IMG/VR virus record: IMGVR_UViG_3300030419_001427
Coordinates: 1-20,153 of that record
From: a virus
DNA length: 20,153 nt
Strand: one strand, 5' to 3'
The notes beneath the pieces were generated by a model. The model worked only from the letters and a program-made list of their open reading frames with translations, was not told the DNA's origin and did no database searches. This document shows, piece by piece, positions 697 through 13,483 of this stretch (the stretch's first letter is position 1; every line of letters starts with the position of its first letter). Made by a program: the position numbers and the translations under genes.

Positions 697-3198
697 TTGT
701 ATCAAGCAATTCACTATGATGTAAAAAAATCAAAAATGCATTTATGGGACGACCAAAAAGGTTATCTCGTAGTCCCTTATCATAAGTATGCTTATGTTAA
801 ACACTCAAATGGTCAGCATGTTTCTCTTTATGGAGATAGATTAAAAAGAGTTACAAACTATGACAAAGATGACCCAACACTTCACGAGTCAGATGTTCCG
901 CCAGTCACAAGATTTTTAGTTGATAACTATGGAGATTCTGATGAGGTATCAGTAGGACATAGAACTATGTTCTTTGACATTGAGGTTGAAGTAACGGACG
1001 GATTTCCTGACATAGAGAAAGCACAAAATCCAATCACTTCAATAGCACTCTATGATTCCACAACACAAAAATATTTTACCTATTGCTTTGACCCAAAACA
1101 AAGAATTAAAAATTATACAAAAGATGACGAGATAGTTGAGTTCTATGATACTGAATATGAAATGTTAAATAAGTTTTATCAAAAGTATTTAGAAATTAGA
1201 CCTACGATTATTAGTGGTTGGAACTCAGACTTTTTTGATATTCCTTATCTATATAATAGAGCGGTTAGAGTGTTGGGGCCTGAGGTAGCAAATCTTTTAT
1301 CACCAATCTCAGAAGTTATTTATTCAGAATACAAAAAGAAACATACAATCGCTGGTGTATCATCATTAGATTATTTATCTTTGTATCGTAATTTTTCATT
1401 TACTCAACAATCAAGTTATCGTTTAGATTATATTGGTGAAGTAGAAGTTGGTATGAAAAAGGTTGATTATGAGGGGACACTTGATGATTTATATGAGAAA
1501 GACTTACAGACTTTTATTGATTATAATATTCGAGATGTAAGAATATTAGTTGAGTTAGACAAAAAATTAGATTTTATTGAAATTGCCAGAGGTATTGCTC
1601 ACTTAGGGCATGTTCCTTATGAAGATGTTTATATGTCAAGTCGTTGGTTAGAGGGAGCTATATTAGTTTATCTGAAAAAGATTGGTGTGGTTGCACCAAA
1701 CAAACCAAGACGACCAAAAAAATTAGATGATGATAAGTTTGCAGGAGCTTATGTTCAAGAACCACAATCTGGCAAACACGATTGGGTTTATGACTTGGAC
1801 ATTACATCAATGTATCCGAGTGTTATTCGTTCACTAAATATATCACCTGAAACAAAAGTTGGTAAGGTAGTGGGTTGGGACGCTGAACAATTCTTAAAAA
1901 CCGATAATAAAAAAACTTACACAATGTTAAATAAACAAGGTAAGGAAATGGGTAAGATGACAGAAAGAGAACTTCAACAATATTTTGATGAAGCAGATGT
2001 TTCCATAGCGTCAAATGGAATAATGTATAGAACAGACAAACAAGGACTGATACCTGCATTGTTGGAAAAATGGTTCAATGAAAGAGTTGAGATGAGAAAA
2101 CTTGTGAAGAAGTTTCACGATGAGGGTGATAAAGAAAAAGAAGATTATTTTGATAGACGACAATATATTCAGAAAGTTGTATTGAATTCATTGTATGGTG
2201 TATTAGGTTTATCAGTATTTAGATTTTATGATTTGGATAATGCCGAAGCAACCACTCTTACGGGTCAATCTCTAATTAAGTTTAGTAAAAAGATAACCAA
2301 TCATTATTACAACACTCAATTGAATACTGATGACGACTATGTTATCTATATCGATACAGACTCTATTTTTGCTTCGGCAGTTCCATTGATTGAGAAAAGA
2401 TTTCCTAATCAAGAATTGACAGAAACTATGATGACACAAAGGATTTCTGAAATTTGTGCAGAAGTTCAAGACTATCTAAACAATTCATACAATTATTTTG
2501 GTAAAAAGTTTTTAAATCTTGATAAGCATGTGTTCGATATCAAACAAGAGGTAATTGCAAAGACAGGTTTATTTATCACAAAGAAAAGATATGGGTTAAG
2601 AATTATTAATGACGCTGGTAGAAAATGTGATAAAATTCACGTTAAAGGATTAGACACGGTTCGTAGTAATTTTGCGGTGGCTATGAAAGAGTTATTGTCA
2701 AATGTGTTAGAAGATATTCTGGCAAATGTTCCAAAAGAAAAGATAGACGAAAGAATTAGTATCTTTAAAAGAAATATGACTTCATTACATTATGATGTTA
2801 TGGCAAATCCAATCGGTGTAAAAGGTATTGGAAAGTATCAGATAAAAGATGATGACAATCCATTTGCCACCTACAAAAAAGGAACACCAGTTCACGTCAA
2901 GTCTGCTATTAATTATAATTCGTTGTTAGAACATTGGTATGAGGGTAGAAAATATACAAAGATATCTAACGGAGAGAAAATTAAATGGGTTTATTTAAAA
3001 GAGAATGAGTTTGGTTTTGATACCATAGCTTACAAAGGTTATGAAGACCCACCACAAATTTTAGATATGATTAAAAACTTCATAGACCATAATAAAATGT
3101 TTGAACAAGCTATGAGTAAGAAAATTGGTATGTTTTATAAAGCAATGCATTGGGGTGGAATAGAAGACACAACACAATCAATGAGTAGGTTTTTCTAA
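697..3198 (+). CDS. 43: T4-type family B DNA polymerase (gp43-like)
   Basis: Replicative DNA polymerase with 3'-5' proofreading, 833 residues (T4 gp43 is about 900). Exonuclease motifs: Exo I with D94/E96 (FFDIEVEV), Exo II with D178 (WNSDFFDIPYLYNR), Exo III with D280 (YNIRDVRI). Polymerase motifs: A with D368 (DITSMYPSVI), B around K493 (KVVLNSLYG), C YIDTDS at 551-556, and a KKRY element at 629-632. The protein ends in SMSRFF. In T4 and RB69 the polymerase C-terminus is the peptide that binds the gp45 sliding clamp, so this tail is probably the clamp-docking peptide. Translation starts at TTG, the only non-ATG start I assign, behind a good AGGAG. Its stop shares one base with the next gene's ATG (taATG), implying coupled translation with the Mom-like gene. 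Confidence 0.97.
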   Translation: MYQAIHYDVKKSKMHLWDDQKGYLVVPYHKYAYVKHSNGQHVSLYGDRLKRVTNYDKDDPTLHESDVPPVTRFLVDNYGDSDEVSVGHRTMFFDIEVEVTDGFPDIEKAQNPITSIALYDSTTQKYFTYCFDPKQRIKNYTKDDEIVEFYDTEYEMLNKFYQKYLEIRPTIISGWNSDFFDIPYLYNRAVRVLGPEVANLLSPISEVIYSEYKKKHTIAGVSSLDYLSLYRNFSFTQQSSYRLDYIGEVEVGMKKVDYEGTLDDLYEKDLQTFIDYNIRDVRILVELDKKLDFIEIARGIAHLGHVPYEDVYMSSRWLEGAILVYLKKIGVVAPNKPRRPKKLDDDKFAGAYVQEPQSGKHDWVYDLDITSMYPSVIRSLNISPETKVGKVVGWDAEQFLKTDNKKTYTMLNKQGKEMGKMTERELQQYFDEADVSIASNGIMYRTDKQGLIPALLEKWFNERVEMRKLVKKFHDEGDKEKEDYFDRRQYIQKVVLNSLYGVLGLSVFRFYDLDNAEATTLTGQSLIKFSKKITNHYYNTQLNTDDDYVIYIDTDSIFASAVPLIEKRFPNQELTETMMTQRISEICAEVQDYLNNSYNYFGKKFLNLDKHVFDIKQEVIAKTGLFITKKRYGLRIINDAGRKCDKIHVKGLDTVRSNFAVAMKELLSNVLEDILANVPKEKIDERISIFKRNMTSLHYDVMANPIGVKGIGKYQIKDDDNPFATYKKGTPVHVKSAINYNSLLEHWYEGRKYTKISNGEKIKWVYLKENEFGFDTIAYKGYEDPPQILDMIKNFIDHNKMFEQAMSKKIGMFYKAMHWGGIEDTTQSMSRFF

Positions 3199-3968
3199 TG
3201 TATGTAAATGCAGATTCAGTTTACATTGAGGAAATACCAAGTTCAGTAGCCAAGAAAATGATTATTGAAAAACACTACACTCACGCATTCAGTATGTGTA
3301 GATATGCATTAGGTATTTATTATGTTGGAGAACAAGACCACAAGTTTTATGACGGAAAAGAAACTAAGTTAATTGGTTGTATGACTTATGGATATCCAGT
3401 TGGTCGTTCAGCGGTCAAGTCTATGATACCAACGTTAGAAAAAGAACAAGTATTAGAATTGACACGACTATATATTGATGACGGATACGGAAAGAACATT
3501 GAGTCATTGAGTATGGGTAAATCTTTCAAGTGGTTAAAGCAAAATGCCAGAGATATAAAAATGTTAATCAGTTATGCAGACCCGGAACAAATGCACTTGG
3601 GAACGATTTATCAAGCAACAAATTGGTTGTATCAAGATTGTCGTGATATACAATTAATGCCAAACTATTCAGTATCATTAGGTGAACCACATAATTGGAT
3701 ACATAGTCGTACGGTATTTTCAAGATACGGAAGTCATAATGTAGAACACTTGAAAAATGAAATAGGACATACATTTTATAGAAAAAGAGAAGCACCTAAA
3801 CATAGATACTTATATTTTTTGGGTTCATCAAGAGAAAACAAAAAGATGAGAAAACAATTGAAACACGATTGTAAAGCATATCCAAAAAACAAAGAAGAAT
3901 TTATACCGCCGATAGAGAAAATCGAGGTAGAAAATAAAAAAATCAAATCAATGGAAAAGTTTTTTTGA
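3198..3968 (+). CDS. Mom-like DNA adenine modification protein (GNAT-related) with a clamp-binding-like tail
   Basis: 256 residues resembling the phage Mu Mom family, which modifies adenine in phage DNA to block host restriction. Supporting segments: KHYTHAF with H26, Y27 and H29 near the N-terminus, LIGCMTYGYPVG (a GNAT-like strand pair), LELTRLYIDDGY in the middle, and the family-typical YADPEQMHLGTIYQATNWLY around residues 126-145 (D128). A basic C-terminal third would suit nucleic acid contact. The last residues, KSMEKFF, repeat the S-M-x-(R/K)-F-F end of the polymerase encoded immediately upstream, and the next gene is the sliding clamp, so I infer that it docks on the clamp. The start overlaps the polymerase stop by one base. 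The gene could instead be a GNAT relative with another substrate; the exact modification cannot be read from sequence. Confidence 0.75.
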   Translation: MYVNADSVYIEEIPSSVAKKMIIEKHYTHAFSMCRYALGIYYVGEQDHKFYDGKETKLIGCMTYGYPVGRSAVKSMIPTLEKEQVLELTRLYIDDGYGKNIESLSMGKSFKWLKQNARDIKMLISYADPEQMHLGTIYQATNWLYQDCRDIQLMPNYSVSLGEPHNWIHSRTVFSRYGSHNVEHLKNEIGHTFYRKREAPKHRYLYFLGSSRENKKMRKQLKHDCKAYPKNKEEFIPPIEKIEVENKKIKSMEKFF

Positions 3969-3987
3969 TTTTCAGATTAACAAATGA

Positions 3988-3995
3988 TATTTATA
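3988..3995 (+). promoter_or_regulatory. TATTTATA octamer, copy 2, upstream of the sliding clamp gene
   Basis: TATTTATA lies 28 bases before the clamp ATG. It overlaps a consensus -10 hexamer, TATAAT (3992-3997), but no good -35 box is seen at the right distance. The local word GATATTTATAA is shared with the gap before the Hint-protein gene. Confidence 0.45.
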
Positions 3996-4023
3996 ATTGA
4001 AAAATAATAGGAGAAAATAGGTT

Positions 4024-4755
4024 ATGAACAAAACTCAGTTAACAGACTTCATTACGAAATATACTCTTGGTGGAGAAATTAAATCAACTAAATGGACTTC
4101 AAACGGAAACTCATTATCAACAAGATTTATCTCAGGTGATAAATCAGTTGTGGGTAAAGTTGAATTAAGTAAGTTCACTCATCTATCACCTTGTGAATTA
4201 GGTGTATATAATACAGGACAACTATCAAGTTTGTTATCAGTATTGGGTGATGATGTTGAGGTTAGTTTATCAAACTCAGGAGATAAATTTATTTCTATGG
4301 AGTTCGTAGATACTAAAAGAAAAACAAAGTCAAAGTATATGTTAAGTGATTTATCGGTTATCCCTACACCACCAGAACTAAAAAATTTGCCAGATAGTTT
4401 TGAGTTAGGTATTAAGGTTGACCCTTATTTCGTGAACACATTTATTAGTGGTAAAGGTGCTTTATCCGAAGCAGAAACTTTTACTATTTTGACTGAAAAT
4501 AACGAAACAAAAATCGTTATTGGATATGCGAGTATCGCATCTAATCGTGTTACAATTCCAGTTGAAACTACAAAATATAAAGAGATTGAACCAATCAGTT
4601 TTAATGCAAATATGTTCGCATCAATCTTAAATGCAAACAAAGATTGTGAAAGTGCAACTCTTGAAGTTAGTTCAGCAGGTTTATCAAGAATACAATTCTC
4701 AATTGATAACTACAATTCAGAATACTTCTTGGTGTCAACACAAGCGGTTAATTAA
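4024..4755 (+). CDS. 45: Sliding clamp, DNA polymerase processivity factor (gp45-like)
   Basis: 243 residues; T4 gp45 is 228. In T4 the homotrimeric ring encircles DNA and tethers polymerase, and also activates late transcription. The call rests on length, on the two-fold repeated all-alpha/beta layout suggested by the sequence, and on gp45-like stretches: an N-terminal MNKTQLTDFITKYT helix, LGVYNTGQLSSLLSVLG mid-protein, and FNANMFASILNANKDCESATL in the second half, followed by a strand-rich end. The position between the polymerase gene and the clamp-loader ATPase gene fits the T4 cluster. AGGAG (4009-4013) lies 10 bases before the ATG. The stop overlaps the next ATG by one base. Clamp family sequences diverge strongly, so context carries part of the call. 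Confidence 0.88.
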   Translation: MNKTQLTDFITKYTLGGEIKSTKWTSNGNSLSTRFISGDKSVVGKVELSKFTHLSPCELGVYNTGQLSSLLSVLGDDVEVSLSNSGDKFISMEFVDTKRKTKSKYMLSDLSVIPTPPELKNLPDSFELGIKVDPYFVNTFISGKGALSEAETFTILTENNETKIVIGYASIASNRVTIPVETTKYKEIEPISFNANMFASILNANKDCESATLEVSSAGLSRIQFSIDNYNSEYFLVSTQAVN

Positions 4756-5678
4756 TGGATAATATAAAACATAGTTTATGGGTTGAAAAGTATAGGCCAA
4801 ACACCTTACAAACTTACATTGGTAATGACCATTTAAAAAGTAAGGTGTCAGTCTATTTGGAAAGTGGTGATGTTCCACATTTATTATTATTTGGTAGAGC
4901 AGGAACAGGTAAAACTACTTTGGCAAAACTCATTGTCAATAATATAGATTGTGATTATCTATACATCAACGCATCAGATGAGAATAGTGTAGATGTGGTT
5001 CGTGAGAAAGTCAAGAACTTCGCATCAACATTAGGTTTCAAAGATATGAAAGTGATTATCTTGGACGAGTGTGATTACATTACACCAAACGCCCAAGCAG
5101 CACTTCGTAATCTTATGGAAACTTTCTCTAAGAATTGTCGTTTTATATTGACTTGTAATTATGTCGAAAGAATAATTGACCCAATACAAAGTCGTTGTCA
5201 AGCATTTCAGATAATTCCACCAGATAGAAAAGAAGTAGCACAACATCTGGCAAATATATTGGATAATGAAAGTGTTAATTATGACATTAAGAATATAGCT
5301 ACCATTGTAAATGGTGGTTATCCAGATATTAGACGAGTAATCAATGGTGCTCAACGACAAGTAGTTAATAATGAATTAGTAATTGATGAAAATACAATCA
5401 CTCAAAACGATTATAAATTACAAGTATTAGACATATTAAAAACACAAGACAAGAAAAACTCATTTCAAAATATCAGACAATTATTAGCAGACTCAAAAGT
5501 ATCAGACTTTTCAGATTTGTTTAGGTTATTGTTTGATACGATTGATGATTGGGCAACAGGTCATATCGCAGAGTGTATTTTAATCTTGTCTAAATATCAA
5601 CAATCAGACGCAGTCGTAGTGGATAAAGAAATCAACATTATGTCTATGTTTGTAGAAATAATAGGGACAATAAAATGA
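4755..5678 (+). CDS. 44: Clamp loader large subunit, AAA+ ATPase (gp44-like)
   Basis: 307 residues, close to T4 gp44 (319) and to RFC small subunits. It opens and loads the sliding clamp at primer-template junctions using ATP. Features: N-terminal LWVEKYRPNTLQTYIGN (RFC box II type); Walker A GRAGTGKTT at 47-55 with K53; Walker B IILDECDY with D104/E105; sensor-1-like ILTCN; and the SRC motif S146-R147-C148 that supplies the trans-acting arginine finger; then sensor 2 near GGYPDIRRVING. Walker B has Cys after Asp-Glu. It is translationally coupled to the clamp (taATG) and to the next gene (ATGA). In T4 the small subunit gene 62 follows directly; here a zinc-ribbon gene does, and the probable gene 62 lies about 7.9 kb away. 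Confidence 0.96.
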   Translation: MDNIKHSLWVEKYRPNTLQTYIGNDHLKSKVSVYLESGDVPHLLLFGRAGTGKTTLAKLIVNNIDCDYLYINASDENSVDVVREKVKNFASTLGFKDMKVIILDECDYITPNAQAALRNLMETFSKNCRFILTCNYVERIIDPIQSRCQAFQIIPPDRKEVAQHLANILDNESVNYDIKNIATIVNGGYPDIRRVINGAQRQVVNNELVIDENTITQNDYKLQVLDILKTQDKKNSFQNIRQLLADSKVSDFSDLFRLLFDTIDDWATGHIAECILILSKYQQSDAVVVDKEINIMSMFVEIIGTIK

Positions 5679-7891: not shown

Positions 7892-9691
7892 ATGTCAGTT
7901 CAAACAAAAATAACAAATTTATTAAACCACATCACAGGAAGTGCAGGTGGTTGGCCAACAAATACTAATATTGGTATTTTAGCAGGTGTTGATTATATTA
8001 AAGAAGAAACCACAGACAACATATATTTCAATGAAATGAACACAGCTTGTGGTATTTATGGTTCTTATAATGAACAAACAGCTTCATTTGACTTAATTGC
8101 AGACTATGCAAACGAAAAAGGTTGCACAAATGCATTTGTTTATGGTCAAGATGATAGTGTTAAGTATAATCCTTCTAACTTTCAACACCCATTGATTAGT
8201 GCGAGTTTTGCCAGACACAACATAAGTTGTAGTTTTGAGTATGGAGATGATACAAACAGAACATACTTTACTCAAAGAGGACAAAATCAATACACAAGTA
8301 GTTTCCATTTCTTTATACAAACACCATTTTTTAGTGATGATAATCTATTAGAGATAGTTAGTGGTTCATTTGATAAGACAACATTTAGAACTATATTGAA
8401 CTCATCACCTGAAAGTGCGAGTTTAATACCATTATTTAACACAAGTTCTTTTTCTGATACAAATGCATATCATCCAGATTTTGTAGTTAAAGATGCGAGT
8501 AAAGACGGAACAGCTCTTGACAATACGATATTGTTTCATAAATACAATTCATCAAACCCAACTTATCAAAATTCAGTAAATAGTGGTTCATTGATTGAAA
8601 AATATATTGTCCCAAGTGGTAGCACATTGAGTAATCAAGGATACTTTAAAACAACAAAACAAGATTATTTGTTAACACCAGACAGACAAATATTATTAAA
8701 AGATAAAGATAGATTTACTTTTTCATATGCACCAAAATTTATTTTAAGTGGTGATAGATATCATATTCAAAACGCTCTTGGTGTATATTCATCACCAAGT
8801 GGTAGTGAAATTACTATGTATGATAATTCAACAAAACAAGTTCAAGATATTGAAGTTGGAGATGTTGTGAAATCATATAAACCTGCTGGAATGCCAGATG
8901 AATTTTTCTTTGAAGATTGGTATGATTATAGTTCAACAAATTTAAGTGGTTCAGTCGCATCTGGTTCAGTTGTGGTTAGAACTTTTAGTGAGGACTTTTA
9001 TGGTTATTATTTAATTAATGGAAGTATAAAAATTCCAGTGATGAAACAAGCTATGATGAAAGGTGGTAGATTTTTTACAAAACAAGGTGATACTTGGAGT
9101 TGGCAAACACCTGACAATATTAATGTAGGTAATTACTTTTTAGATAAAGACGCAAACGAAGTTGAAATCACATCAAAAACAGAAGTAGCACAAGAGGACA
9201 CATTTTATTCATTAGATGTAGAGAATATTGATACATACTTTACATCAGATATTTTAGTTCATAATATTCCACCAGGTAAATGTTTTACAGGTGATACAAT
9301 GATTACATTAGCAGACGGAACTTATGAAAACATACAAAAGATTAAACCAGGAACAGAAATTAAAACTTATAATGAGGAAACTGGTAAATTACAAAATTCA
9401 GTCGTGGGAGAGATTACAAAAATTAGACACGACAATTTAGTTAAATATAAATTTAGTGATAATACAGAAATTAAAGCAACAGATGACCACCCATTTTATG
9501 TCGGCGGAGATTACAAAGCACCATTAGAGGTTGGTGATGAGGTTTTAAATGATGAATTAAACAAAGTAAATGTGGTTAAAGTTGAAAAGCTCGCCTACAT
9601 GCAAATCACATACAATATAGATAACACAAATAACGGCAAGAATTACTTTGCGAATAGGGTTTTAGTATCAGATGAGTCAGAAACAGAATAA
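7892..9691 (+). CDS. Probable virion or processed protein with two tandem Hint (intein-like) domains
   Basis: 599 residues. Residues 1 to about 295 are Ser/Thr/Asn/Tyr-rich with no recognised enzyme motif; the style resembles phage structural proteins, but I do not recognise the family. Residues about 297-458 look like a degenerate Hint domain: SGSEITMYDN, then VQDIEVGDVVKSY, ending ILVHN (N458). Residues 464-599 form a second Hint domain: CFTGDTMITLADG starting at C464, IQKIKPGTEIKTY, the T530-D-D-H533-P-F block B, and NYFANRVLVSDE. Hint domains cleave or splice proteins autocatalytically. The pentapeptide IPPGK separates the two. Domain 1 lacks Cys1 and the block B His but keeps the terminal His-Asn; domain 2 is the reverse. 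No homing endonuclease segment is present. The stop overlaps the following oxygenase gene by 20 bases. The octamer upstream marks it as a transcription-unit head. Confidence 0.8.
   Translation: MSVQTKITNLLNHITGSAGGWPTNTNIGILAGVDYIKEETTDNIYFNEMNTACGIYGSYNEQTASFDLIADYANEKGCTNAFVYGQDDSVKYNPSNFQHPLISASFARHNISCSFEYGDDTNRTYFTQRGQNQYTSSFHFFIQTPFFSDDNLLEIVSGSFDKTTFRTILNSSPESASLIPLFNTSSFSDTNAYHPDFVVKDASKDGTALDNTILFHKYNSSNPTYQNSVNSGSLIEKYIVPSGSTLSNQGYFKTTKQDYLLTPDRQILLKDKDRFTFSYAPKFILSGDRYHIQNALGVYSSPSGSEITMYDNSTKQVQDIEVGDVVKSYKPAGMPDEFFFEDWYDYSSTNLSGSVASGSVVVRTFSEDFYGYYLINGSIKIPVMKQAMMKGGRFFTKQGDTWSWQTPDNINVGNYFLDKDANEVEITSKTEVAQEDTFYSLDVENIDTYFTSDILVHNIPPGKCFTGDTMITLADGTYENIQKIKPGTEIKTYNEETGKLQNSVVGEITKIRHDNLVKYKFSDNTEIKATDDHPFYVGGDYKAPLEVGDEVLNDELNKVNVVKVEKLAYMQITYNIDNTNNGKNYFANRVLVSDESETE
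8780..9265 (+). other. Hint domain 1: degenerate N-terminal half, intact VHN end
   Basis: Residues about 297-458 of the large protein. The Cys1 position is occupied by Ser (S300 or S301), and the block B region reads YLINGSIKIPVMKQ, where a T-x-x-H would be expected. The end DTYFTSDILVHN matches block F/G with H457-N458, so only C-terminal cleavage by Asn cyclisation looks possible. Confidence 0.65.
9281..9688 (+). other. Hint domain 2: intact Cys1 and TxxH, lost C-terminal HN
   Basis: Residues 464-599. Cys464 is the candidate nucleophile, T530-x-x-H533 the block B pair. The end reads LVSDESETE, so S593-D594 stand where His-Asn are expected. N-terminal thioester formation and cleavage look possible; splicing does not look possible by the standard route. 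Confidence 0.75.
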
Positions 9692-10298
9692 CGACTTTTT
9701 ATATTCAGTTCAAATTCCAAACTTTTTATCATCAGAAAAATGTGATGAATTATTAAAAGACATAATGGAATCAGAACAAGATGTGATAGGTTGTGTTGGA
9801 GATGAACAAGGAAAAAATGCAGTCATACCAGAAATTAGAAAAACTAATGAGTGGTATTTATGTGAACAAGAAGAAAACCAATTCAGACCAACAAAACCAA
9901 ACAAAGATTGGAAATGGTTACAGGACAAAATGTTTCAAATGGCCAATATTGTAAATGATAAAGTATTTCATTTTGATATTGACGGTTGTGATAATGAATT
10001 AAAATTAATAGAATACACAAAGGGTGGTTTCTATGGTTGGCACACAGACTTTAATGCAGGAACTTGTTCAGTAAGAAAATTAGTAGGGATTATCCAATTA
10101 ACAGACCCGAGTGAATATGAGGGTGGAGATGTTCAATTTGGTATCCAAGACAAAGACACAAAAGAGTGGTATTCAATGAACAAATTAAAAGGTTCATTAA
10201 CTTTCTTTCCGGCATTTCTATGTCATAATGTTGTTCCAGTCAGCAAAGGTAAACGATATGTAATTCAAGAATTATTTATCGGAGACCACTTCAAATAG
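9672..10298 (+). CDS. 2-oxoglutarate/Fe(II)-dependent oxygenase (prolyl-4-hydroxylase-like), first of three
   Basis: 208 residues with the double-stranded beta-helix iron site: H124-x-D126 (GWHTDF), distal H185 (CHNVVPV) and R195 (KGKRYVIQE) for 2-oxoglutarate. Shared family text includes KLVGIIQLTD and EYEGGDVQF. Such enzymes hydroxylate or otherwise oxidise proteins, nucleic acids or small molecules; the substrate here is unknown. The first and third enzymes of this trio are more alike than either is to the second. The start codon lies 20 bases inside the Hint-protein gene, with TAGGG about 13 bases upstream. T4-like marine phages commonly carry several such genes, so the family is expected, but three side by side is a notable cluster. 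Confidence 0.9.
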   Translation: MSQKQNNDFLYSVQIPNFLSSEKCDELLKDIMESEQDVIGCVGDEQGKNAVIPEIRKTNEWYLCEQEENQFRPTKPNKDWKWLQDKMFQMANIVNDKVFHFDIDGCDNELKLIEYTKGGFYGWHTDFNAGTCSVRKLVGIIQLTDPSEYEGGDVQFGIQDKDTKEWYSMNKLKGSLTFFPAFLCHNVVPVSKGKRYVIQELFIGDHFK

Positions 10299-10305
10299 GA
10301 TAAAA

Positions 10306-10869
10306 ATGTATAAACCAATAGATATGGATAGTTTGAAATTAAATAATAATTTCAAATGGGTAATAACAAAAGATGACTTCTTTACAAAAGAGGAGTGCGA
10401 CTATATCATTGACAAAGTAAACAAAAATTCTGAAAGAAAGAAAACTAAATACTATGAAAAAGAAGATAGTATTTGTTTATTAAACATTAACAAAAACAAT
10501 GAACAAAAATACTTAGATAAATTTTGGGAAGTAATATCAGTAGCAAATCAAATACATTACAAATATGATATCAAAGGTATTTATAGAAATAGAATACAAT
10601 GTCATAGATATGATGTAGGAGATTGGTATAATCCACACTCAGATTTTTATCCAATAGACCAATTCAGTTCATTAAAATTAACTTGTATCGTATCATTAAA
10701 TGATGATTATGAGGGTGGAGAGTTTAAGTTGTTTGACGGAAAAACCATAGAACAAAAACCAGGTAGATTAATTATTCACCCGGCATTTGCAGGACATCAA
10801 ATTACCGAGATAACAAAAGGTGAGAGATACTCTTGTGTTGCTTGGGCAGTTGGAGATACTTTCGTATGA
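10306..10869 (+). CDS. 2-oxoglutarate/Fe(II)-dependent oxygenase, second of three
   Basis: 187 residues. Iron ligands H111-x-D113 (NPHSDF) and distal H164 (AGHQITE), with R174 (KGERYS) for 2-oxoglutarate. DDYEGGEFKLF and RLIIHPAFAGH follow the prolyl-4-hydroxylase-like pattern. It differs from its neighbours in having HSD rather than HTD, and a shorter segment between YEGG and the distal His, implying a different substrate pocket. Seven bases separate it from the preceding stop; AGGA just upstream serves as the ribosome-binding site. It ends in ATGA overlap with the third copy. Confidence 0.9.
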   Translation: MYKPIDMDSLKLNNNFKWVITKDDFFTKEECDYIIDKVNKNSERKKTKYYEKEDSICLLNINKNNEQKYLDKFWEVISVANQIHYKYDIKGIYRNRIQCHRYDVGDWYNPHSDFYPIDQFSSLKLTCIVSLNDDYEGGEFKLFDGKTIEQKPGRLIIHPAFAGHQITEITKGERYSCVAWAVGDTFV

Positions 10870-11435
10870 TACAAAATGATAAATTTAAATTCGTAGTTCA
10901 TAAAGAGAACTTTCTATCATTAAGTCAATGCCAGAAGCTAATGAGATACTTAGAAACAGGTGAAGCGACTGAATCAGAACTCGCAGGTAATTATGACGAG
11001 AATATTTTGAACAAAGAGGTTCGTGATAACAAAGAGGTTGTTATCAATAATAAACAATTAAATGATAAATTAAAAATGGTATTTGAGTTATCTAACTTAT
11101 CTATTTGGAAATACAATATACAAGAAATGGAAAAAGTTAAAATATTAAAATATGAAAATGGTGGTAAATATAAATGGCATACTGATTGTGGTTCAAAAGA
11201 AACTTCATTAAGAAAACTAACAGCTATCGTTCAGTTGTCAGACGAAACAAAATATGAGGGTGGAAATTTAGAGTTTGGAATTACTGACGAAACAGGTGAA
11301 AATAATTATACCGCACCAAGAACAAGAGGAAGTATAACAATCTTCCCTGCTTTCTTATCACATAGAGTTACACCAATCACAAAAGGAAAAAGATATTCAT
11401 TGATAACTTGGATGTTAGGAGATTGTTTTGTATGA
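10866..11435 (+). CDS. 2-oxoglutarate/Fe(II)-dependent oxygenase, third of three
   Basis: 189 residues from the ATG at 10866, which forms an ATGA overlap with the previous stop. An in-frame ATG at 10833 would add residues with no family resemblance and lies inside the preceding gene, so I reject it. Iron ligands H105-x-D107 (KWHTDCG) and distal H166 (LSHRVTP); R176 (KGKRYS) for 2-oxoglutarate. SLRKLTAIVQLSD and KYEGGNLEF align closely with the first enzyme of the trio, suggesting these two arose by the more recent duplication. Its stop overlaps the radical SAM gene by ATGA, so enzyme and radical SAM protein are probably made together. Confidence 0.9.
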   Translation: MIQNDKFKFVVHKENFLSLSQCQKLMRYLETGEATESELAGNYDENILNKEVRDNKEVVINNKQLNDKLKMVFELSNLSIWKYNIQEMEKVKILKYENGGKYKWHTDCGSKETSLRKLTAIVQLSDETKYEGGNLEFGITDETGENNYTAPRTRGSITIFPAFLSHRVTPITKGKRYSLITWMLGDCFV

Positions 11436-13483
11436 GAATAGCACTATGTATATGCCCACAATGGTCAGTTCAAACGCCTTCTTTCGCAATCGGTAGTTTA
11501 AAATCACACATCAAAAATAAAGATGTTGAGGTTGAACAATTTGATTTAAACATCAGAACATCATTATATACAAAAGAAAAAAATATACAAAAGTTTTGGG
11601 ATTGGGGTAATGATACGCCTTGGAATTCCGAAGCAAACTTCAAAGATGAAATATTACCACACTTTAAAGATTTATGGCACGAGTATATAGATAAATTAGC
11701 AGAATATGATGTGGTGGCATTTACCACTTACATTTCTAACATTGTAACAACAGACTATATTGCCAGATACTTAAAACAAAAAAATCCAAAGATACAAATT
11801 TGGTATGGTGGCCCATACTCTTGGTATGCAGAATCAGCAGGGTTAGTTGAAAACGATAATTATAGAGAGTATGTTGATGTGGCTTGTAGTTCAACTGACG
11901 GAGAAAAAATTATATCTGATTTAGTTAATCGTTATACTGAAGACGGACATTATGAAAATGTAAAGGGTATTTATCGTTGGGATAAAATAGCACCAAGTTT
12001 TCCTACGGTATTGAAAAAGGGTCGTAGTGGTAGAAAGCCAGTGTTTAATGGGCCAGTCTTACCACAAAATCTAAATGAATTAGAAATACCAAGTTGGGAT
12101 AAAGAAATCATAGATGAGTTCAAAAAATTAACAGAAGCTTTTGATACAGAATTACAATTACCAATGCAAACTTCAAGGGGTTGCACTTTCAAATGCACAT
12201 TTTGTAGTGAAACAAGATTGTATAGAACAAAAAACAATGAAAAAATTGTTGATGAGATGAAAGGATTAACTGAACAAACTGGCATTAATAACTTTTGGTT
12301 TACAGATTCATTGATTAATGGGTCAATGAAAAACTTTAAGTTGTTGGTAGAAAAATTAGAAACAGAAATGGATAATGGAACGATACCAAAAATGTATTGG
12401 GGTGGACATTTCAGAACACACAAAAAACTTGACGGAGAATTATTAACAAAAGCAGTTAATGTAGGATTAAACTATATGAATGTTGGGGTAGAAAATGGTG
12501 TTAACAAGATACTGGCATTAATGGAAAAAGGACAGACCACAGATGATGTTAGTCATTTTTTGAAATCTGCATATGAAAGTAAAGTATTCTACATAGCTAA
12601 TTATATACCAGGTTATCCAAAAGAAAACTATATGGACTTTATATTACAACTAAAATTTTTGTATGACAACCACAAATATTTTGGAAACAATGGGGTTATA
12701 AACTTAATGCAATCAACCGACATACTTAATCACACACCATTAGATGTTTACAGAGATGATTTTGAGGTTTCAAAAAAGAAAACTATGTTGAACGCTTGGG
12801 TATCAAAAGACTATAAAAATATATTGATGATTAGACATTTAAGGTCATTTTTAATTGAAATAATGTTAAGGACATTTAAATTTACAAAAGAGGGTGAGGA
12901 TTTAATCGGAGATGAGTTCTCATATGCAACCACAAAAGAAAGGGGTGGAAAACCACCATATTATAGAGCAAGACTAAGAGAGAAAGACTTAGTGTTTAAT
13001 AATGTTGAAGTAGAACTGAAGGACAATGTAGATAATGATATATTTAACAAAGATTTTTTATTATCTACGGAACAAAACAATGTTGTGGACACGATTAAAA
13101 ATGAGATAACAAAAACAATAAAAGGTTTTGCTTGGGTAATGGTAAACATAAGTAATAAATCAAATGTTAATTTTATCATTAGAGATAATTTCAAAGGTTA
13201 TGGTTTAAAAGACTCTTGTTTTAATTTAAATTTTTCATTAAATTCTAATGGTGATGACTTTGAACTTGATTTTGGATTTGATTTTAAGATTGGGAAAGAT
13301 GACAAATATTTATTTAATGAAACAGATAAATTAGATTTTATTGCCAGAAACGAGATAAAAATTGTTGATAATGTTAATGAGTATAAATTTTCTGAAGAAG
13401 TTAATGATTTATATTTAGATAGCACAGATTACAAAAAGCATAAGATATCAATACCACGAGTTCCAATGACAAATCAATATTAA
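11432..13483 (+). CDS. Radical SAM protein with N-terminal B12-binding-type domain
   Basis: 683 residues from the ATG at 11432 (ATGA overlap with the preceding gene); an upstream in-frame TTG at 11408 is less likely. Residues 1 to about 190 have the Rossmann-like layout of B12-binding domains that precede radical SAM domains: MRIALCICPQWSVQTPSFAI, DVVAFTTYISNIVTTDYIA, IQIWYGGPYS. The classical DxHxxG cobalt-ligand motif is not seen. The 4Fe-4S site is C251-x3-C255-x2-C258 (SRGCTFKCTFCSE), followed by INNFWFTDSLING and a GVENG stretch typical of the radical SAM barrel. The last 200 or so residues are Asn/Asp/Lys-rich strands I do not recognise. Members methylate or rearrange unactivated carbons; the substrate is unknown. 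It closes the accessory transcription unit with the oxygenases. Confidence 0.85.
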   Translation: MRIALCICPQWSVQTPSFAIGSLKSHIKNKDVEVEQFDLNIRTSLYTKEKNIQKFWDWGNDTPWNSEANFKDEILPHFKDLWHEYIDKLAEYDVVAFTTYISNIVTTDYIARYLKQKNPKIQIWYGGPYSWYAESAGLVENDNYREYVDVACSSTDGEKIISDLVNRYTEDGHYENVKGIYRWDKIAPSFPTVLKKGRSGRKPVFNGPVLPQNLNELEIPSWDKEIIDEFKKLTEAFDTELQLPMQTSRGCTFKCTFCSETRLYRTKNNEKIVDEMKGLTEQTGINNFWFTDSLINGSMKNFKLLVEKLETEMDNGTIPKMYWGGHFRTHKKLDGELLTKAVNVGLNYMNVGVENGVNKILALMEKGQTTDDVSHFLKSAYESKVFYIANYIPGYPKENYMDFILQLKFLYDNHKYFGNNGVINLMQSTDILNHTPLDVYRDDFEVSKKKTMLNAWVSKDYKNILMIRHLRSFLIEIMLRTFKFTKEGEDLIGDEFSYATTKERGGKPPYYRARLREKDLVFNNVEVELKDNVDNDIFNKDFLLSTEQNNVVDTIKNEITKTIKGFAWVMVNISNKSNVNFIIRDNFKGYGLKDSCFNLNFSLNSNGDDFELDFGFDFKIGKDDKYLFNETDKLDFIARNEIKIVDNVNEYKFSEEVNDLYLDSTDYKKHKISIPRVPMTNQY

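Follow-up and report, generated by a model that had tools for sequence, protein, structure and literature searches.

Why should a DNA-modifying enzyme end in almost the same peptide as the DNA polymerase encoded directly before it? The question is raised by a virus record of 20,153 bases from a marine T4-like phage (hereafter the window), in which four consecutive genes on the + strand encode a gp43-like family B DNA polymerase (697..3198; Pfam DNA_pol_B 4.6e-42, phrog_262 7.7e-186), a predicted Mom-family DNA-modifying enzyme of 256 aa (3198..3968), a gp45-like sliding clamp (4024..4755) and a gp44-like clamp loader large subunit (4755..5678; phrog_168 1.3e-84). The polymerase gene starts at TTG and stops at TAA (3196-3198), overlapping the ATG of the Mom gene by one base (TAATG). 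When read directly from the two ORFs, the polymerase ends in ...TTQSMSRFF, of which QSMSRFF (3175..3195) holds a PIP-like core, M-x-x-F-F, and the Mom protein ends in ...KKIKSMEKFF, with SMEKFF at 3948..3965; both ends are as given in an initial annotation of this DNA. A terminator or hairpin was sought at the end of the Mom gene and none was found; TTTTC follows the stop codon directly and opens the Mom-clamp junction (3969..4023, + strand). Upstream, positions 21-593 encode the C-terminal part of a TonB-dependent receptor, an odd outer-membrane protein for a phage to carry. A chimera was suspected from this fragment and was rejected because complete receptors of about 850-950 aa lie upstream of the polymerase gene in relatives L186, L188, L193 and L320. 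Further downstream, 7892-9691 encodes a protein with a Hint/intein-like domain near its C-terminus (PT-HINT 2.9e-8, Intein_splicing 3.2e-8), and 9672-13483 encodes three 2OG-Fe(II) oxygenases in a row, then a B12-binding/radical SAM protein.

The Mom protein of phage Mu places a carbamoylmethyl group on the N6 of adenine. The window ORF had been called Mom-like from its letters alone, and profile searches bear this out: it matches Pfam PF25680 over positions 2-202 of 202 (E 8.4e-48; 163 bits against a cut-off of 27.1) and phrog_1384 (E 6e-45), and the Mom profile aligns with the solved Mu Mom, 8BV8, over profile residues 9-232, that is, across the entire catalytic domain (E 3.6e-13). The stretches H-Y, L-x-R, S-[YF]-A-D and Y-Q-A-[ST]-N are conserved with Mu Mom, and the residues HY, LxR, SxAD and YQAxN are invariant in 11 T4-like Mom proteins; by analogy, the chemistry is presumably that of the Mu enzyme. 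The two proteins differ at the C-terminus and in gene setting. Mu Mom stops where the domain stops (YPK, residue 230 here), whereas the window protein, encoded within a replisome operon, runs on for 26 residues, made up of a linker (residues 231-250; 3888..3947, + strand) and the tail KSMEKFF.

The gene that follows had been named as a clamp, and it proves to be one by profile and predicted fold: it matches phrog_223 (5e-7) and the RB69 clamp (1b77/1b8h, E 0.0033), and Foldseek assigns its model to the PCNA fold (TM 0.6-0.7, E about 1e-13). T4 gp43, gp55 and gp33 each bind gp45 through a C-terminal motif, and the three motifs can replace one another; in T4/RB69 the clamp is bound by the C-terminus of the polymerase (PMC2988020). 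The comparison with T4/RB69 drawn in the initial annotation thus holds for the role of the polymerase C-terminus but not for the peptide itself, since the T4 sequence LDFLF (gp43 ASLDFLFG; gp55 SLDFLYEAND) is absent from the window tails. PIP motifs follow the consensus Qxx[I/L]xxFF (PMC9690074); the Mom tail has the hxxFF core (M-E-K-F-F) and lacks the Q, and the hydrophobic-x-x-F-F core is common to the Mom and polymerase tails. Both tails therefore appear closer to the PIP box than to LDFLF. As in T4 gp55 and gp33, an unrelated protein carries the polymerase's C-terminal peptide on a variable linker, but those T4 proteins are transcription factors with the motif LDFL[FY], whereas the window protein is a predicted DNA-modifying enzyme with hxxFF. 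A gp55-like sigma tail was also sought as an independent clamp client, and none was found. The absence of the exact T4 peptide leaves room for a different ligand, such as the clamp loader, the polymerase or another shared replisome partner, or for a sorting or stability signal. We regard this as improbable, given that the T4/RB69 polymerase C-terminus binds the clamp (PMC2988020), that a tail with the PIP core occurs here beside a clamp with the PCNA fold, and that tail types covary with those of the phage's own polymerase. AlphaFold2 was run on natural read-through fusions, one joining a Mom tail to the clamp (L002) and one, as control, a polymerase tail to the clamp (L123). Neither tail docked, and pLDDT was 42-46 for the Mom tail and likewise low, 50-62, for the polymerase control.

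The Mom protein is 88-99% identical in 13 other contigs, with the same gene order wherever it could be read, and the tail is present in all 13 as K[SP]MEKFF, KSMEKYF or KSMEKFI. Among these sister phages, pN/pS is 0.117 for the last six codons, a value based on few substitutions (1.7 synonymous and 1.3 non-synonymous per pair), 0.10 for the body of Mom and 0.18 for the linker, which varies in length and sequence through indels. The changes seen in the tail keep its hydrophobic identity (M/L/I and F/Y/I). At the codon level, the tail thus shows purifying selection similar to that on the enzyme body. Conservation does not extend to Mom proteins at large. In more distant T4-like phages, with polymerases 46-63% identical, the position of the Mom gene varies (upstream of the polymerase, between the genes for clamp and clamp loader, or downstream of the loader), and its product ends in VSFW, KGFYE or NKWEN or has no aromatic ending; in siphovirus P12002L, Mom lacks the tail. 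The idea that every T4-like Mom tail is a clamp peptide was rejected, because close matches to the phage's own polymerase were confined to the window clade and L021/L023. In the L013-type clade the FW endings of Mom are conserved and are at most candidate clamp peptides. Conservation in Mom homologues, proposed at the outset as a check, accordingly holds in the close contigs and fails in most distant T4-like Mom proteins; since distant tails differ or are missing, the tail is a trait of the window's phage lineage and not of Mom.

In phages with polymerases 79-88% identical to that of the window, the junction between polymerase and clamp holds other genes or nothing. One class of cargo comprises PF01555 N6/N4 DNA methyltransferases ending in NNSSTLEKFI (L119, L120, L124 and L126, also L202 and L203); another is an HNH/endonuclease VII-like protein (phrog_3322) ending in KIEKYF or KIERFF (L131, L133-137, L263). 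An SGNH-like cargo in L317, which is not a known DNA enzyme, ends in SIERFF, as does its polymerase, and the codons differ only synonymously. Cargos free of any tail were also found, namely GDSL-like (L051/L070) and glutaredoxin-like (L076) proteins. On strongly supported branches of the polymerase tree, at least five changes involve Mom and at least three the methyltransferase, and Mom can be 98% identical where the polymerases are only 83% identical; the contents of the slot, with their tail, have thus been exchanged. The tail is lacking in methyltransferases outside T4-like replication operons (L196-198) that share 57-68% identity with the L119 cargo. Two of them, L197 2460-3212 and L198 5989-6741, end in TKQTKLF and TKQINLF, which resemble the bacterial beta-clamp motif QxxLF and might possibly serve for tethering to the host clamp. 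In the empty slots (L116-L118, L123, L125), the sequence just past the polymerase stop resembles a cargo 3' end (AAAAATAAATTTGATTTTC versus AAAAATTTATTTGATTTTC), as if it were the scar of a lost cargo.

How closely tails follow the polymerase was assessed by scoring the last five residues of every gene against the last five of its own polymerase. Among relatives, nearly all polymerases of this type terminate in [ST][MIL]x[RK]FF. The top of the scan is held by a 483-aa GT-like protein ending in DSWF beside a polymerase ending in NSWF (L319), together with the HNH-like protein, the SGNH-like protein, the window Mom and methyltransferases (L283, L170). Also at the top are a second Mom, in L013, which ends in KWFGF and its polymerase in EFFGF, and the L023 Mom, which ends in NKFFDI and its polymerase in EKFFNF. 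Contigs of 45-219 genes usually hold a single non-polymerase gene with a close polymerase-like tail, the adjacent cargo. Matching tails are not confined to the slot, since those of the L023 Mom, the L283 methyltransferase and the L319 GT-like protein belong to genes upstream of the polymerase. Overall, 9 of 664 gene families have a C-terminal 5-mer scoring at least 13 against their own polymerase tail, and 40 control offsets gave a mean of 2.9 and a maximum of 7; taken alone, this excess is modest. Next to the polymerase such tails are far more frequent: they occur in 6 of 25 polymerase-adjacent families and in 3 of the 639 others (Fisher p 1.2e-7; control offsets 0-2), and 8 of 9 adjacent tails match the type of their own polymerase (exact p about 0.012, calculated by hand), p-values that are descriptive because families were inspected before some tests were framed. 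A short peptide at a poly-T gene end (AAA..TTTTTT) in an AT-rich genome could resemble another by chance or low complexity, and the modest excess over all families would allow for this. With the tail kept in 13 contigs and in unrelated cargo, and with the enrichment next to the polymerase, such a coincidence appears disfavoured and very improbable.

Several other endings came to light in the same comparisons. Among cyanophage methyltransferases, those of S-RIM12 and P-TIM68 give no hint of a polymerase-matched tail; S-CAM22 ends in GLTSLF (polymerase SLEFLFG) and Sf-CH1b in SVLSFT (polymerase TISSFFS), endings that hint at the same pattern, but together the four support no claim. Two glycosyltransferase-like paralogues of 483 and 465 aa, with no Pfam match, end in DSWF and VAWF beside a polymerase ending in NSWF (L319/L321/L325, upstream of the polymerase; L371 12733-14130), and homologues elsewhere end in KKHxWF; they are possible clamp-tethered DNA glycosylation enzymes. 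Endings of the form HxFF or HxWF are found near the clamp on PALP-like, CxxCxxCC and methyltransferase proteins (L186 7414-8911, L317, L320, L347 737-2053), and also on GT-like proteins. The register differs from that of the polymerase tail, and these endings are perhaps a second tail type.

The origin of the tail may be sought in the DNA around it. The 3' ends of cargo genes and their flanks are homologous to those of the polymerase gene in relatives that have no cargo (z up to 9), as in the L133 cargo compared with the L138 or L132 polymerase. The flank at 3969..4023, which begins TTTTC, is common to methyltransferase- and HNH-bearing slots and is itself related to the polymerase 3' flank of cargo-less relatives. 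The glutamate in the Mom tail (SMEK) is nearer to the polymerases of relatives (SMER, SIER) than to its own polymerase type (SMSR, SMNR). These relations are read most simply as a duplication of the polymerase tail on entry into the slot, which is most likely why cargo tails match the polymerase; because the 3' ends are homologous DNA, the likeness owes something to common descent and is not all convergence. This homology, together with the similar sequence retained past the polymerase stop at empty sites and the tail on the SGNH-like cargo of L317, would also suit a view in which the tail codons are no more than the last part of a homologous 3' flank, a by-product of recombination at the slot, and encode a peptide without any function. 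We consider that view unlikely. The tail is under purifying selection like the enzyme body, with hydrophobic identity held; several slot cargos lack it; and the three upstream genes with matching tails have no such flank. Those genes cannot have acquired their tails in place by duplication, and selection for the match therefore has to be invoked as well.

Our preferred reading, to which we assign a probability of roughly 0.6, is that the duplicated peptide tethers modification enzymes to the replisome by binding the clamp, as we infer from sequence comparison. Carried on a flexible linker, the Mom tail would dock on the pocket of the phage sliding clamp that serves the polymerase, and Mom would then act on DNA at the sites of clamp loading, at the fork or directly behind it; freshly made DNA would thus be modified ahead of any attack by host nucleases. 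The tails of Mom, of the N6/N4 methyltransferase and of the HNH-like cargo would either derive from the polymerase tail or be matched to it. More tentatively, the arrangement may be common to a marine family of T4-like phages that is itself widespread, with the polymerase-clamp junction acting as a recombination slot that gives captured modification enzymes (Mom, N6/N4 methyltransferases and possibly glycosyltransferases) and nucleases a duplicate clamp peptide that would make their action replication-coupled, and with the cargo tail following that of the polymerase as the clamp pocket diverges.

The initial annotation treated replication-coupled Mom activity as not known to have been described, a claim that needs narrowing. 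According to Sommer 2004, as cited in PMC13216743, T4 alpha-glucosyltransferase co-purifies with gp45, and clamp-bound modification of phage DNA is therefore not in itself new; the contact with gp45 adds little to glucosylation levels in vivo (PMC13216743). Both the T4 enzyme and the window Mom are phage DNA-modifying enzymes, with clamp binding known for the former and proposed for the latter, but they differ in enzyme and chemistry, and the T4 gene lies outside any polymerase-clamp slot. A gp43-like tail on the T4 enzyme was considered and rejected, as it ends in ..KEQFDIITK. DNMT1 likewise is a base modifier with a short motif for a sliding clamp, PCNA (PMC9690074), as is proposed for the window Mom; however, DNMT1 is a eukaryotic maintenance methylase, and its motif is not copied from the polymerase's own tail. 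The part of the claim that stands is more specific: the open-access literature searched yielded no account of a Mom or phage methyltransferase with the clamp tail of its own polymerase, or of a slot between polymerase and clamp genes that provides such a tail.

If the reading is correct, an acquired enzyme becomes part of the replisome through duplication of a six-residue peptide, and replication-coupled hypermodification of phage DNA becomes directly testable, with natural controls in the tailed and tailless members of each enzyme family and in the occupied and empty versions of the slot. In T4 it is disputed what part the clamp plays in DNA modification; the conserved tail described here argues for selection on that role.
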